41,522 nt of DNA from the IMG/VR virus record IMGVR_UViG_3300005731_000058, positions 1 to 41,522 of that record, one strand, 5' to 3'. The DNA is from a virus. The translations under genes and the position numbers were made by a program. The notes under the pieces are model-generated. The model searched no databases, was not told where the DNA came from, and was given only the letters and a program-made list of their open reading frames with translations. Of the stretch, positions 3,338-28,626 are shown one piece after another; the stretch's first letter is position 1; every line of letters starts with the position of its first letter.

Positions 3338-5045
3338 ATGTTCGCCACAAGTTGACAAGCGATTGAAACGCCTCGATGGGATGTTGACTGGTGAACGTAC
3401 GCTTTCATCACTGGAGCGGCAATGTGTGCAACGGCAAATCAATGACCTGCGAACCGGTCACGAACGTGGCCTGAAGTGGGACGAGGAAGCGGCGAGTAAG
3501 TCTATTGCATTTGCTAAGTTAATGCGGCACTGGAAAGGACGGCAGTTCATTGGCAAACCGTTTGAGCCTGAAGCGTGGCAGGAAGAATTGGTGTTTGCTC
3601 CGCTGTTCGGGTGGCAGCGGTATAGCGAGCAGTTTGGCAAATATGTTCGCCGGTTCAATGAAGGTTACGACGAGGTTCCGAGAAAGAACGGTAAGTCGTT
3701 CAAATCGGCAGTGATTGCAAATCACGGTTTGCTTGCAGATGGCGAAGAAGCTCCTGAAGTCTATTCTGCGGCGTCTCTCAAGGAGCAGGCGGGTATTGTC
3801 TACAAGGATTGCCGAAAAACGATTGAGGCAAACCCAGCACTTGCCAAGCATGTGCGGGTATTCAGCAATCGCATTGAGTGCGGTTTCAACAATGGGATAC
3901 TGAGAGCGATAGGCAGCGACTACAACGACCTGCAAGGGCTTAATCCGTCGCGTTGTATTATCGATGAGTTGCACGCACACAAGAAGCGAGACACATACGA
4001 CGCGATTCTCACGGGGATGGGCAACCGGGAAAACTGGATGCTGTTTTGCATTACGACTGCCGGTTTTGACAGGTCGTCAATTTGCTGGGAACGTCGGTCA
4101 TACGCTGAAAGGATTCTATCGGGAGACTTGATTGACGATACGATGTTCGCTTACATCGCGTGTGCGGAAGATGGCGACGACTTCAGCGACCCGGAGGTTT
4201 GGCACAAAGCGAATCCAAATCTTGGCGTCAGCGTATTTCGCGACTTCCTTTCGCGTGAAGCAAAGCAGGCGAAGGAGCTGTCATCGAAAGAGAACAGTTT
4301 TCGACGGCTGTACCTCAACCAGTGGACCGAGCAGAGCGTTCGCTGGTTGCAGATGGCGGAATGGGACGCCTGTATTGAGGAGTTCGAAGAGTCTGATTTG
4401 TACGGGCGCCCCTGTATTGCGGGGCTGGACTTAGCGAACACACGCGACGTGAATGCGTTGGTGTTGTTGTTTCCGATGGACGATGGAACTTATCGACTGT
4501 TGCCGTATTTCTGGATTCCTGAAGACTCAGCGTCAAGTCAGGCGGCAAGCGACAAGCGTTTGGCTATGGCGTATGCAGATCAGGGACACATCAAGAAAAC
4601 GAAAGGCAACATTGCCGACTTCGACGGAGAGATCATTGACGACATCGCGAATATTCTCGCTAGATTCAATGTGCTAGACATCGCGTTTGACCCATGGGGA
4701 CCAGCTCCGGTTGTGGTTGATAGATTGCACAGAGAACTAGGCGTCGACGAAAGTTTATTCGTCGAATACCGTCAGTCGCTGGCGAATTTTGCGGGGCCGA
4801 CTAAAGACTTTGAGCGACTGATCGGAAAGCGAAAAATGCGACACAACGGCAATCCTGTTCTAAGGTTTATGGCGTCAAATGTGGTTATAAGAGAAGACGT
4901 GAACGGGAACATCCGACCGGATAAAGGCGAATCAGCAAACAAGATTGATGGTATCGTGGCATCAATCATGGCTTTGGGTCAGTGGAACACACGCGAGGAA
5001 GAGACACCATCAATTTACGAAACGCGAGGAGTATTGACGCTTTGA
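3330..5045 (+). CDS. terL: terminase large subunit (ATPase/nuclease)
   Basis: 571 residues, Terminase_1 type. Deviant Walker A PRKNGKS at residues 117-123; Walker B CIIDELH with D212-E213; motif III region LFCITTAGFD (about 239-247). The nuclease domain begins near GLDLANTRD (D367, D373) and continues through LDIAFDPWG. TTG at 3330 overlaps terS and is preceded by GAGG; an in-frame ATG at 3381 is the alternative start. It translocates DNA into the prohead and cuts it. Confidence 0.95.
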   Translation: MAKCSPQVDKRLKRLDGMLTGERTLSSLERQCVQRQINDLRTGHERGLKWDEEAASKSIAFAKLMRHWKGRQFIGKPFEPEAWQEELVFAPLFGWQRYSEQFGKYVRRFNEGYDEVPRKNGKSFKSAVIANHGLLADGEEAPEVYSAASLKEQAGIVYKDCRKTIEANPALAKHVRVFSNRIECGFNNGILRAIGSDYNDLQGLNPSRCIIDELHAHKKRDTYDAILTGMGNRENWMLFCITTAGFDRSSICWERRSYAERILSGDLIDDTMFAYIACAEDGDDFSDPEVWHKANPNLGVSVFRDFLSREAKQAKELSSKENSFRRLYLNQWTEQSVRWLQMAEWDACIEEFEESDLYGRPCIAGLDLANTRDVNALVLLFPMDDGTYRLLPYFWIPEDSASSQAASDKRLAMAYADQGHIKKTKGNIADFDGEIIDDIANILARFNVLDIAFDPWGPAPVVVDRLHRELGVDESLFVEYRQSLANFAGPTKDFERLIGKRKMRHNGNPVLRFMASNVVIREDVNGNIRPDKGESANKIDGIVASIMALGQWNTREEETPSIYETRGVLTL

Positions 5046-20780: not shown

Positions 20781-20839
20781 ACGCCGAATCAGTCCGCGAA
20801 TTTTACGCGGCAGGGTGAGCAATAAGGAATGGTAATTCA

Positions 20840-21451
20840 ATGCGAGAGATTACAGCAGGGCAATTCAGGGAAATCGTCGAAAAGAACAAGTTATGGATCA
20901 ATGGAAAGGAAGGCGGTGACAGAGCCAACTTGAGTGGCGTCAACTTGAGACACGCCAACTTGAGTGGCGTCAACTTGAGACACGCCAACTTGAGTAACGC
21001 AAACTTGAGTAACGCCGACTTGAGACACGCCGACTTGAGTAACGCCGACTTGAGACACGCCGACTTGAGTGACGCCGACTTGAGACACGCCGACTTGAGT
21101 GACGCCAATTTGAGACGCACCAACTTGAGTGACGCCAATTTGAGTGACGCCGACTTGAGTGACGCCGACTTGAGACACGCCAACTTGAGTGAAGTCGACT
21201 TGAGTGAAGCCGTCGCTCGTCTTGATTTTGGCGGCTGGTCCATCTGCGTAAGGCACAATATCACATCTATTGGCTGTCGCACATGTAGCAACGATGACTG
21301 GCTCAAATGGTCACCTGAAGATGTCGCCAACTTTGACTCAAATGCAAGTGATTGGTGGGCTACTCACGGTGATGCTGTCAAAGCGGTAATTCGGTGTGTC
21401 ATGGGAAAACATCGCGGGGTGAGCCAAGCAAAAAACAAAACAACCGCTTGA
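20840..21451 (+). CDS. pentapeptide-repeat protein
   Basis: 203 residues. Residues about 29-124 are near-perfect A(N/D)L(S/R)x pentapeptides ([20 protein letters not shown]), about 19 in a row, predicting a right-handed quadrilateral beta-helix. A C-terminal domain follows: [28 protein letters not shown]... then [14 protein letters not shown]. From memory this tail accompanies similar phage proteins. Some pentapeptide proteins (Qnr, MfpA) mimic DNA and act on gyrase; whether this one does is unknown. Terminator at 21480 follows. Confidence 0.85.
20924..21210 (+). repeat. 15/30-bp tandem repeats encoding pentapeptides
   Basis: Units of the type AACTTGAGTGGCGTC and GACTTGAGACACGCC alternate about 19 times with almost no synonymous drift: Leu is always TTG and Ser always AGT. 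This indicates recent expansion or homogenisation by recombination or slippage, and it opens long spurious frames on the other strand. Confidence 0.9.
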
Positions 21452-22554: not shown

Positions 22555-22573
22555 AGGTGAGGGGATATGAATG
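22555..22573 (+). promoter_or_regulatory. double ribosome-binding site for two overlapping frames
   Basis: AGGTGA (22555-22560) lies six bases before the ATG at 22567, and GAGGGG (22559-22564) lies six bases before the ATG at 22571. The two ATGs (ATGAATG) open different frames, both of which stay open for more than 870 bases. Confidence 0.55.
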
Positions 22574-23463
22574 AGCTGGCATTGTTTGCAGGAGCAGGAG
22601 GGGGAATTCTCGCTTCAAAGTTACTTGGATGGAATACGGTCGGATCGGTCGAAATCGAAGACTACCCCAGGCAAGTGCTACTGCAAAGACAGCGAGATGG
22701 AATCCTGCCAAAGTTCCCAATCTGGGACGACATCAGAACATTTGACGGGAAACCCTGGAGAGGAATCGTTGACGTTGTCTCAGGCGGATTCCCGTGCCAA
22801 GACATCAGCACAGCCGGAAAAGGAGCAGGGATCGAAGGGGAACGAAGCGGATTGTGGTCGGAGATGGCAAGAGTCATTCGCGAAGTACGACCCCGATTCG
22901 CGTTCATGGAGAACTCACCAGCTCTCACTTCTAGGGGGTTACATCGAGTTCTCGGAGACTTGGCCGAAATGGGGTTTAATGCAAGATGGGGTGTGCTGGG
23001 TGCAGACGACTGCGGCGCCCCACACAGACGGAAACGAATATGGGTACTTGCCCACTCCAACATGTCAGGAAATTGCCCATCCGAATGTGAAACTGACGCC
23101 TTGTGGAAAAAGAAGACTCACAAAGGACGGGAAGGACAGCCATTCATTGAATCTGACGGATCGGGTAATGCTCAAAGAAAGAGAGAAGTTTCCGACGCCA
23201 CGATGCCAGATGTACAGAAAAGTGAATCTGCGAGAGCAGTGGTATGCAAAAAATGGGGAGAATGGAAACTTAGAGGAGCGGATAGCAGTGATAAATCCTT
23301 CCTCGATTGGTGGGAGGCTGAACCCAGATTGGACCGAGTGGCTGATGGGATGGCCAATCAAGTGGACCGACTTAAATCCATTGGAAACGGACAAGTACCA
23401 GCAGTGGCTGCAACAGCATTCACAATTTTATCGCAAGGACTAGAAAAGGAATTTGCATGTTAA
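22567..23463 (+). CDS. C5-cytosine DNA methyltransferase
   Basis: 298 residues. Motif I LFAGAGGG (6-13), motif IV GGFPCQDIS with catalytic C77, motif VI as MENSP (114-118, Ser where ENV is usual), motif VIII APHRRKRIW (151-159), and motif X RLKSIGNGQVPAVAATAF near the C-terminus. The target recognition region between VIII and X is short (about 100 residues). It methylates cytosine, probably to evade host restriction. The same DNA is open in the +1 frame (22571-23443). The stop overlaps csrA. Confidence 0.93.
   Translation: MNELALFAGAGGGILASKLLGWNTVGSVEIEDYPRQVLLQRQRDGILPKFPIWDDIRTFDGKPWRGIVDVVSGGFPCQDISTAGKGAGIEGERSGLWSEMARVIREVRPRFAFMENSPALTSRGLHRVLGDLAEMGFNARWGVLGADDCGAPHRRKRIWVLAHSNMSGNCPSECETDALWKKKTHKGREGQPFIESDGSGNAQRKREVSDATMPDVQKSESARAVVCKKWGEWKLRGADSSDKSFLDWWEAEPRLDRVADGMANQVDRLKSIGNGQVPAVAATAFTILSQGLEKEFAC
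22571..23443 (+). CDS. +1-frame protein inside the methyltransferase gene (290 aa)
   Basis: Open for 290 codons in the +1 frame. Beyond length, it carries segments that I recall from stand-alone phage proteins found near methyltransferases: SFAKYDPDSRSWRTHQLSLL, EFSETWPKWGLMQDGVCW, YLPTPTCQEIAHPN, and LNPDWTEWLMGWPIKWTDL near the end. Trp, Pro and Gly are placed as in a folded protein. ATG 22571 has its own Shine-Dalgarno register. Function is unknown; a methyltransferase partner or specificity factor is conceivable. Could still be a passive shadow of a conserved gene. Confidence 0.55.
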   Translation: MSWHCLQEQEGEFSLQSYLDGIRSDRSKSKTTPGKCYCKDSEMESCQSSQSGTTSEHLTGNPGEESLTLSQADSRAKTSAQPEKEQGSKGNEADCGRRWQESFAKYDPDSRSWRTHQLSLLGGYIEFSETWPKWGLMQDGVCWVQTTAAPHTDGNEYGYLPTPTCQEIAHPNVKLTPCGKRRLTKDGKDSHSLNLTDRVMLKEREKFPTPRCQMYRKVNLREQWYAKNGENGNLEERIAVINPSSIGGRLNPDWTEWLMGWPIKWTDLNPLETDKYQQWLQQHSQFYRKD

Positions 23464-23633
23464 TTTTATCACGGAAGCAGGGCGAGCGAATCACAATCGG
23501 CGATGACATCACAATCGTGATTGTCTCGATTCCAGGCGACAAGGTTCGTTTGGGGATTGACGCCCCGAAAGAACTCGCCATCAAGCGACCGGACATGGTC
23601 AAGCGAGAGCCAGCGGAAGCAGTGACTTCATAG
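23457..23633 (+). CDS. csrA: CsrA carbon storage regulator (phage-encoded)
   Basis: 58 residues: MLILSRKQGERITIGDD then ITIVIVSIPGDKVRLGI and DAPKELAIKRPDMVKRE. L4, R6, G9, I14, R31, G33, A36, P37 and R44 of E. coli CsrA are all retained, including the two RNA-contacting regions (residues 2-7 and 40-47). It binds GGA in mRNA leaders and controls translation and stability. AAGGA lies six bases before the ATG; start overlaps the methyltransferase stop. Confidence 0.93.
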   Translation: MLILSRKQGERITIGDDITIVIVSIPGDKVRLGIDAPKELAIKRPDMVKREPAEAVTS

Positions 23634-25172: not shown

Positions 25173-25359
25173 GTCGGAATTAAACATTGTGCTGGAGTCC
25201 ATCGAAAAGGTTCGCGCGAAGTCGAGAGAGATGGCCCCATTTAGACCTGTGACAGTCCCAATGTTTACTGAAATGTTCGAGATTCAGAAGGAGCTAGACA
25301 TCATCGAAAAAATCGTGAGAAGGAACGGAGTGTCAGACCCAGAGGTAGCCAATGACTAG
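25165..25359 (+). CDS. small helical hypothetical protein (64 aa)
   Basis: Two acidic/basic helices (ESELNIVLESIEKVRAKSREM and MFTEMFEIQKELDIIEKIVRRN). GGGAGG precedes the ATG. Lies directly before the exonuclease gene and overlaps it by eight bases; possibly an accessory of the recombination module. Confidence 0.55.
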   Translation: MVESELNIVLESIEKVRAKSREMAPFRPVTVPMFTEMFEIQKELDIIEKIVRRNGVSDPEVAND

Positions 25360-26305
25360 CCCTGGTATCTATCACGGAATGAGCTTCGAGGATTACGCGG
25401 CAATCGATGCGTTGAACTATTCAACATTGAAGCGGGCGATTGTCAGTCCTGAAGAACCGCACTCGATGAAACACCTGAAGGCAGCGATTGAGGGCGATAA
25501 TCAACTGCGACAAACGGACGCAATGCGGCTTGGTCGGGCAATTCACGCTCGCATTCTCGAACCGGATTTGTTCAATAAGATTCCAATTCAGCGGAAATGC
25601 TCGCACATCAAGAAGGATGAGCAGCGATGCACAAATCTTGGAAAGTACACCGATGAATTCGGTTGGTATTGCGGTGTTCGCGGTCATGCTCCAGCCGATG
25701 TTGTGGAGCAAGTTGATTACATTAGCGAGGCAGAAGCAAAGCAGGCGGACAGCGTTTACGAGTCGCTCAGAACTTCAGAAGTTTTGCATCACCTCAGGTC
25801 GTCCGGTTGGTCCGAATCAGTTGTTGTTTGGGAGCACAAAGGGCAGTTGCTGAAGTCGCGAATTGACCGACTATCGAAGGACTGCCGGTTGATTCTTGAT
25901 ATCAAAACTATTCAGGCGTCACGCGGTTCAGTTGACTTATGCCGCAAGCAAATTTGGAACCTGCGATACGACATTCAGACGGCAATGAACATTGATGGAG
26001 TACAGGCAGTAACGGGAGTCAAGCCACGTTTCGTGTGGGTGTTTATTGAAAAGTCCGAACCGTTCGACGTGCAAGTGATTGAAGCGGATGAAATCGACCA
26101 TGCGTATGGTGCGGTGGAGTATCAAGGCATTTTAGACAGATGGAAAATCGCAAATGAGCAAGAGCAATACTACGGATACATCAGTAATCCACGACGAATC
26201 AAACAGGGACGATTTATCGACCAAGGCGTTCCCGGCTGGGTCCGTCAACGCGATGAAAAAGCAGGGCGAGACATCCTTGCAGAATTCGCAGAGCTTCGAC
26301 AGTAG
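25352..26305 (+). CDS. RecE/exonuclease VIII-like PD-(D/E)XK nuclease with Cys/His insertion
   Basis: 317 residues. LRLGRAIHARILEP-type segment at 59-71, metal-binding D172 (KSRIDRL), and LDIKT with D183 and K185, then YDIQTAMN: the order of the PDDEXK_1 exonucleases that resect double strands for annealases. Residues 80-115 form an insertion with C83, H85, C93, C107 and H112, resembling a small zinc knuckle. The ERF gene follows, as expected for a two-component recombinase. Confidence 0.82.
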   Translation: MTSPGIYHGMSFEDYAAIDALNYSTLKRAIVSPEEPHSMKHLKAAIEGDNQLRQTDAMRLGRAIHARILEPDLFNKIPIQRKCSHIKKDEQRCTNLGKYTDEFGWYCGVRGHAPADVVEQVDYISEAEAKQADSVYESLRTSEVLHHLRSSGWSESVVVWEHKGQLLKSRIDRLSKDCRLILDIKTIQASRGSVDLCRKQIWNLRYDIQTAMNIDGVQAVTGVKPRFVWVFIEKSEPFDVQVIEADEIDHAYGAVEYQGILDRWKIANEQEQYYGYISNPRRIKQGRFIDQGVPGWVRQRDEKAGRDILAEFAELRQ

Positions 26306-27071
26306 CCAACTGTTGCAAATTGCAATTCAGAATGGCGTTGATGCTGACTCGCTGTCGAAACTTGTCGACTTGAACCAGCGAATGATGGCAATGCGAGCTA
26401 AGCAGGACTTCTATTTGGCGCTGCAGGAGTTTCAAGACAGGTGTCCTCCAATCCCAAAAAACAAGAAAGTTGACTATACAACAAAGGCGGGAGGACGAGT
26501 GAATTATTCCTACGCAACGCTCGATCACATTTCCGAGACGATTAGACCACTACTGACAGAGCTAGGATTGTCGTACACATTCGAGTGTGGTTCGGACGCG
26601 AAATCAATGAAAGTTGCGTGCATAGTTCACCACGTCGCGGGACATAGTGAGACCAGTGAGTTTCCGGTAGATATTGACCGCAGCTCGAAGATGAGTTCAA
26701 TGCAGCAGTCAGCGTCGGCGATGACATATTGTCGAAGATACGCACTCTGCAACGCTCTCGGAATCACCACAGCAGACACCGACGACGACGCCTACTCAGT
26801 CGGGGAAAGCCAGCGACGTGAACGCAGCGGCGAACCAGGACAGGAGCAGTTTGACAATATTAAACGCTATTGGTTTGAGTTGCTCAACCCCGATGGCGGC
26901 AAGTCAGAACGTGCTCGCAGGTTTGAAAAGTGGGTGGTTGAAACTACGAGCATGAAGCCTGCATTTGCAAACGACTGGAAGAAGTGGCTTTCGCAACACT
27001 TCGAGCAATGCAACGACGCACTGGATGAGATGCGGCGGGTGGAAATCGAATACATGGAGCCGGTTGAATGA
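26253..27071 (+). CDS. ERF-family single-strand annealing protein
   Basis: 272 residues from ATG 26253 (53-base overlap with the exonuclease); an in-frame ATG at 26154 would give 305. ERF core: DLNQRMMAMRAKQDFYLALQEFQ, VNYSYATLDHISETIRPLLTELGLSYTF, then SSMQQSASAMTYCRRYALCNALGI, which is the diagnostic QxxGSAxTYxRRYxL pattern of ERF/Redbeta-like annealases. Works with the exonuclease and SSB in recombination and replication restart. Confidence 0.85.
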   Translation: MKKQGETSLQNSQSFDSSQLLQIAIQNGVDADSLSKLVDLNQRMMAMRAKQDFYLALQEFQDRCPPIPKNKKVDYTTKAGGRVNYSYATLDHISETIRPLLTELGLSYTFECGSDAKSMKVACIVHHVAGHSETSEFPVDIDRSSKMSSMQQSASAMTYCRRYALCNALGITTADTDDDAYSVGESQRRERSGEPGQEQFDNIKRYWFELLNPDGGKSERARRFEKWVVETTSMKPAFANDWKKWLSQHFEQCNDALDEMRRVEIEYMEPVE

Positions 27072-27765: not shown

Positions 27766-28626
27766 ATGCGTCACATTTGCCCCATTAGCGGAAAAGATTC
27801 GTTCGCAACAGCAATGTTGTTGCGGCGTGAGGATTTGCCGCTGGAGTACGTTTGGCACGATACAGGATGGGAACTGCCAGAGGTGTACGAGTGGATCGAC
27901 AAGGCGGAAAAACATTTGGGGCAACCGATTATCCGATGTGGTGATAACCTGACGGAGATCGTCGCGGAGCAAGGATTGCTGCCGTCGCCAATGCGGCGGT
28001 TCTGCACGAAGTATGCGAAGATTAAGCCGATGAATGAGTTTGTCGGCAAGCATCCGTTTACGTTGTATTTGGGACTACGAGCGGATGAACCAGGCAGGAT
28101 TGCAGGATTGCGGCAGTCGAAGTGGGAGACGCACCGATTCCCGTTGCAGGAAAACGGATTGGACATGTCAGCGGTGTGGGAAATGGTCGCAGGGGTGGGC
28201 ATGTTGCCGCCGTTGTTCGTGTGGCAGTGGATGGTTGACCGCGTAGCGGAACTTGGCGGCAGGCGTCCCAAAGGGATGCCAGATTGGGAATGGTGGCCGT
28301 TGTTTTCCGGTCGCAGTCGTCCGAATTGTGACCGTTGTTTTTACCAGCGGTTGTACGAGTGGGTCTGGTTGTGGGAAACGCACCCAAATAGATTTGAATC
28401 AGCGGTTAAAACAGAGGAAAGCACGCAGCACGCCAGCGATTTTCGCTGGCTCGGCAAGGGCAAGCCATTGAGCGAAGTGTGGAAGCGTGCCGAACAGATC
28501 AAGGAACGTCGAGCTAGGCAGATCGTGAGGTATTTGAACGACCTTAACGCTCCGAGACTGTTTGACGATTTAGTGCAAGGCAATCCGTTTGGGGCGACCT
28601 CGTGTGGTTTGTATTGCGGAAAATAG
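27766..28626 (+). CDS. PAPS reductase/PP-loop ATP pyrophosphatase-like protein
   Basis: 286 residues. PISGKDSFATAML (6-18) is a PP-loop, lacking one Gly of the usual SGGKDS; RRFCTKYAKIKP and LGLRADEPGR follow as in phage phosphoadenosine-phosphosulfate-reductase-like proteins. The C-terminal NCDRCFYQ and SCGLYCG Cys pairs suggest metal binding. Such genes have been linked to sulfur or nucleotide modification (DndC-like); the substrate is unknown. No good ribosome-binding site precedes it, and ssb-end repeats flank it, so it looks like an inserted cassette. Confidence 0.82.
   Translation: MRHICPISGKDSFATAMLLRREDLPLEYVWHDTGWELPEVYEWIDKAEKHLGQPIIRCGDNLTEIVAEQGLLPSPMRRFCTKYAKIKPMNEFVGKHPFTLYLGLRADEPGRIAGLRQSKWETHRFPLQENGLDMSAVWEMVAGVGMLPPLFVWQWMVDRVAELGGRRPKGMPDWEWWPLFSGRSRPNCDRCFYQRLYEWVWLWETHPNRFESAVKTEESTQHASDFRWLGKGKPLSEVWKRAEQIKERRARQIVRYLNDLNAPRLFDDLVQGNPFGATSCGLYCGK

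Follow-up and report, generated by a model that had tools for sequence, protein, structure and literature searches.

Both overlapping reading frames of a phage C5 methyltransferase gene are under selection and probably encode two chains of one enzyme

C5 cytosine methyltransferases contain ordered motifs that are common to all, with the recognition domain located between motifs VIII and IX (PMC3404938). Two-subunit C5 enzymes have already been described: in M.EcoHK31I (YGGCCR), the large chain carries motifs I to VIII and X and the small chain carries motif IX, with a recognition domain predicted in the large chain, and in M.AquI (CYCGRG), the large chain carries motifs I to VIII and the small chain motifs IX and X (PMC3404938). 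Another overlap is known from ShiLan, in which an HNH endonuclease is hidden within a phage methylase; as this is a different overlap, it was rejected as an explanation of the pair described here (PMC11855218).

The window analyzed here, a virus record of 41,522 bases, contains a 298-amino-acid frame (alpha) and a 290-amino-acid +1 frame (beta), located as an initial annotation had claimed, with ATGs four bases apart (Table 1); every motif quoted in that annotation was found in the +1 frame. On present sequence evidence, the locus very likely specifies a C5 cytosine methyltransferase of two chains, for which the same DNA is translated in two frames. The best reading is that it represents a known kind of enzyme, a two-subunit C5 methyltransferase like M.EcoHK31I, a comparison made by motif distribution. 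The motif split of M.EcoHK31I is that of the window (motifs I to VIII and X in alpha, motif IX in beta). In addition, the M.EcoHK31I small chain was reportedly found by Lee et al. in 1995 to be nested in the large one in an alternate frame, and the beta frame of the window likewise lies over alpha in an alternate frame. The M.EcoHK31I small chain is, however, shorter, at 176 amino acids, whereas beta in the window covers 290 of the 298 codons. Further, selection in the window points to beta as the recognition chain, in contrast to the large-chain recognition domain predicted for M.EcoHK31I, and no restriction partner to compare with that system was identified in the annotated parts of the window. 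The M.AquI arrangement, with motifs IX and X in the small chain, is found in 11 relatives (see below), but motif X of the window sits in the alpha frame.

Several phages carry the same +1 alpha/beta pair, with both frames annotated: K1ind2 (ORF29/ORF28, “Mte8-like”), Paenibacillus phage Jacopo (gp56/gp57), and mycobacteriophages Firecracker (gp6/gp5) and Blue7 (gp92/gp91). Their beta chains belong to phrog_1008, as does that of the window, but begin 88 to 382 bases inside alpha. In a literature search, the phage overlap was nowhere directly described, and the second frame of the phage pairs was nowhere explained as a subunit. Compared with the known two-subunit enzymes, we infer that the near-complete overlap from twin starts, the recognition region in beta, the wide spread, and the switching of motif X between frames are new.

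Table 1. Positions of the two frames and of their signals and motifs in the window
Feature	Position	Strand	Basis
Alpha chain, C5 methyltransferase with motifs I to VIII and X, 298 amino acids	22567..23463	+	PF00145, phrog_363, predicted fold similar to HhaI
Beta chain, +1 frame, 290 amino acids	22571..23443	+	phrog_1008 match, selection on the frame
Shine-Dalgarno GGTGAGG common to both starts	22556..22562	+	Read from sequence
Beta start codon ATG, 4 bases past the alpha ATG	22571..22573	+	Codon choice at alpha residue 2
Conserved beta block AKYDPDSRSWRTHQLSLLGGYIEFSETWPKWGLMQDGVCW, over alpha motifs VI to VIII	22883..22999	+	Dual constraint at residues 96-165; third-base identity
Linker, alpha residues 166-245: probable target-recognition region (beta), filler (alpha)	23062..23301	+	dN/dS, predicted disorder
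Motif IX, beta frame, LNPDWTEWLMGWPIKWTDL	23318..23374	+	Third-base identity; +1-frame motif in 61/62 loci
Motif X, alpha frame, GNGQVP	23383..23400	+	C-terminal alpha constraint; column-conserved in relatives

The dual-frame observation is real, and chance is excluded. The probability of one in a million given in the initial annotation for so long an open frame is right for uniform sequence (9e-7); in a stricter test, 100,000 synonymous-codon shuffles of alpha that kept both protein and codon usage yielded no case of an open +1 frame, with a mean of 7.8 stops expected. In the window, 15 further long genes had +1 runs of no more than 124 codons. Relatives were gathered via frame 0 only, leaving the +1 frame unselected for, and 65 of 80 such loci have a start codon at +4. 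Frequent +1 stops in homologues, which the annotation had named as evidence against a second product, were not encountered: 78 of these 80 loci lack any internal +1 stop. Among 68 unique genes, +1 stops were depleted (1.57 observed versus 5.48 expected) and +2 stops were at expectation (13.1 versus 12.4), and 44 divergent genes contained zero +1 stops over residues 11 to 245, against ∼161 in shuffles (sum over regions). Single stops occur within alpha in four relatives (L079, L180, L191, and L239) and within beta in one (L122), the other frame being open in each; these may be decay, sequencing errors, or tolerated breaks.

The overlapping alpha and beta ATGs (ATGAATG) lie behind a single Shine-Dalgarno sequence. 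A separate Shine-Dalgarno six bases before each ATG had been proposed; instead, one GGTGAGG is shared, and its GAGG core (22559 to 22562) is 4 bases from the alpha ATG and 8 from the beta ATG. In relatives, the Shine-Dalgarno is commonest at 4 to 5 bases from the alpha start and therefore 8 to 9 from the beta start; alpha often begins with GTG or TTG, and beta almost always with ATG. Where alpha residue 2 of the relatives is asparagine, it is encoded by AAT in 130 cases and by AAC in 1, compared with 622 AAT and 924 AAC at other asparagine codons. Since only AAT creates the beta ATG, this preference indicates that the beta start codon is selected. Ribosomes bound at the one Shine-Dalgarno would initiate at either start codon, and we infer that the two starts compete for a single ribosome site.

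Purifying selection acts on both frames, mostly in complementary segments. Amino acid conservation exceeded a synonymous-shuffle null with a z score of about 80 in the +1 frame and 32 in the +2 frame; because shuffling also erases shared ancestry, the contrast between the two frames is the informative part of these scores. Third-base identity at 4-fold sites was 0.74 in the motif IX block (0.29 expected), 0.61 in the FSETWP block (0.30 expected), 0.47 to 0.61 in the conserved beta block (0.29 to 0.30 expected), and 0.33 to 0.37 over residues 11 to 95 (0.28 to 0.30 expected). Differences between close pairs numbered 306, 90, and 356 at codon positions 1, 2, and 3, compared with 453, 292, and 1181 in their flanking genes (p=5e-17, kinship between pairs being only partly removed), with an excess of substitutions at the first alpha position, the third position of beta codons.

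Segment dN/dS values were obtained as two estimates each, the second being based on few doubly synonymous sites. Over residues 1 to 95, they were 0.20/0.07 for alpha, which is constrained, and 0.94/0.33 for beta, for which the estimates disagree, only the first being near neutrality. Both frames were constrained over residues 96 to 165 (alpha, 0.29/0.13; beta, 0.54/0.24) and at motif IX (alpha, 0.54/0.55; beta, 0.30/0.31). In the linker (residues 166 to 245), alpha was neutral (1.26/1.09) and beta constrained (0.40/0.35), and at the C terminus, alpha gave 0.40/0.25 and beta 0.90/0.57, i.e., weak or no beta constraint. Selection thus leaves alpha for beta in the linker and returns to alpha at motif X. 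The comparison of substitution patterns suggested in the initial annotation finds constraint in both frames, segment by segment, and its proposal of a methyltransferase and a partner sharing the same DNA is supported by the open +1 frames, the excess +1 conservation, and the dual-frame dN/dS.

Alpha is recognizable as a C5 methyltransferase by profile (PF00145, 3.4e-33; phrog_363, 2e-69) and by a predicted fold matching the HhaI large domain (Z of 22.3, 189 residues, rmsd of 2.2), in which the linker has low confidence and is predicted to be disordered. F75, P76, and C77 (the PC of catalytic motif IV) and E115 and N116 (ENS/ENV, motif VI) are invariant among 53 alpha chains. The window does not have motifs I to X in one chain: alpha lacks motif IX, and of 62 alpha-found loci, 61 have a motif-IX-like sequence in the +1 frame and 1 has one in frame 0. 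Motifs VIII, IX, and X are divided between the frames.

Relatives differ in the placement of motif X, which is in the alpha frame in type A, including the window, and in the beta frame in type B. In 11 type-B relatives (L072, L127, L135, L137, L162, L177, L227, L231, L249, L251, and L253), alpha has no motif X, and beta continues in one frame through motif IX to motif X; 25 of 242 loci, having no motif X call under the strict pattern of this automatic classification, were assigned to neither type. On the alpha N-terminus tree, whose bootstrap is not fully settled, the arrangement changes 8 times, and at least 4 of these changes are forced by well-supported branches. Beta chains of both types belong to phrog_1008. 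Type-B beta also matches phrog_116, a family of single-chain methyltransferases, within positions 381 to 495 (E values of 1.9e-7 to 4e-10), and alpha chains match the same family at 205 to 375, just ahead of the type-B beta match. In one type-B locus (L127), the part of the beta gene that separates motif IX from motif X contains a third frame, an HNH-like open reading frame (3759 to 4106, + strand) whose match to PF01844 (0.0012) is under the cut-off and which is reminiscent of the ShiLan insertion with its hidden HNH endonuclease (PMC11855218).

The beta chain of the window matches phrog_1008 (2.3e-25) over beta residues 53 to 270. Profile searches of Pfam and NCBIfam with beta matched no family, and a sequence search of the PDB gave chance-level matches only. 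Folded with 49 relatives, beta had a mean pLDDT of 55 and no structural match, and its predicted fold is therefore uninformative. In several type-B relatives, alpha stops shortly after motif VIII, so that the recognition region there must come from beta. Together with the type-A linker, which is constrained in the beta frame only, this suggests that beta carries the recognition region throughout. Beta probably holds the target-recognition region and would then be, in all probability, the motif IX and recognition part of the methyltransferase to which alpha belongs. A [WFL]PTP-type motif occurs in the beta recognition region in 0 to 5 copies, longer beta chains having more copies (e.g., the linkers at L231 3989 to 5422 and L137 3005 to 4270), and this region is possibly modular.

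In the proposed two-chain enzyme, alpha would provide the cofactor-binding and catalytic core (motifs I to VIII) and motif X, and its linker joining the core to motif X would need merely an open frame. Beta would begin with an N-terminal leader whose chief requirement seems to be an open frame; the conserved block, target-recognition region, and motif IX would follow in that order. The analogy with M.EcoHK31I and M.AquI suggests that alpha and beta assemble as one enzyme.

Other explanations accept a translated beta product but assign it differently. Beta could be a separate protein of other function, e.g., a methyltransferase regulator or counter-defense factor, the overlap being coincidental. 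No curated family recognizes beta, as such a protein would allow, but beta possesses the motif IX that is missing from alpha, possesses motif X also in the 11 type-B relatives, and in these matches single-chain methyltransferases in order after alpha; we regard this explanation as unlikely. A programmed frameshift in the linker, giving a single polypeptide with motifs I to VIII of alpha followed by the recognition region and motif IX of beta, would suit type-B relatives, in which a single +1 shift would yield the canonical order I to VIII, IX, X. Type A, however, would require a second shift back to reach motif X, both frames are already constrained at residues 96 to 165, upstream of any linker shift, the +1 frame is stop-free from residue 11, and the beta ATG is under selection, all of which makes a frameshift quite improbable.

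It is more doubtful still that the +1 frame is untranslated. This frame might be kept open by codon bias or as a shadow of methyltransferase-frame similarity, as +1 similarity partly shadows alpha similarity and most other genes of the window have longer +1 than +2 runs; this is contradicted by the synonymous-shuffle tests, by the flanking-gene control, and by +1 dN/dS values of <1 where alpha is neutral, and we consider it very improbable. Conservation of an element in the DNA or RNA, and not of a second protein, would fit the clustering of third-base conservation in two blocks but not a pattern that tracks +1 codons (the excess at alpha position 1), the avoidance of +1 stops over the entire gene, or a conserved +1 peptide that is a methyltransferase motif, and has almost no likelihood.

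The two-chain methyltransferase appears to be widespread: phages and plasmids carry relatives, as do genomes from many phyla, archaeal assemblies among them. Among 274 genomes of one class, beta was present in 10, each time in the +1 frame of alpha; a search of the same genomes for stand-alone beta genes found none, each phrog_1008 match overlapping a methyltransferase in its +1 frame. Stand-alone phage homologues of the +1 protein, mentioned in the initial annotation, were likewise not found, and lone “hypothetical proteins” proved to be the same +1 frame annotated singly. On balance, we favor a large and old phage and bacterial family of near-fully overlapping same-strand pairs, in which the two halves of one enzyme, catalytic and recognition, would have their dosage set by twin starts 4 bases apart, selection would alternate between frames, and motif X would have been repeatedly relocated. 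If so, many entries for single-chain C5 methyltransferases represent just half of the enzyme. Records often list one frame only: alpha in a Leptospira plasmid and beta, as “hypothetical,” in Vibrio phage 1.236.O and Pseudomonas phage phPA-G. If “the” methyltransferase were expressed alone, motif IX would be missing, and the recognition part probably as well; one-frame annotation could account for inactive clones and unassigned specificities. Full-length dual coding would also be well sampled in this family, with a segment-wise switch of the selected frame that makes evolution under overlap directly testable.

Other genes of the window include a CsrA-family translational regulator (23457 to 23633, + strand; PF02599, 8e-21) that overlaps the methyltransferase gene at its end. 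Another encodes a pentapeptide-repeat protein (20803 to 21451; PF00805), whose repeat also opens long antisense frames (20803 to 21330 and 20891 to 21256), which are likely a by-product of the repeat. A phosphoadenosine phosphosulfate reductase-like gene (27766 to 28626, + strand; phrog_424, PF01507) lies in the replication/recombination region, and genes for an Erf-like annealing protein (26154 to 27071, + strand) and an exonuclease VIII-like protein (25352 to 26305, + strand) share 152 bases, read in different frames.
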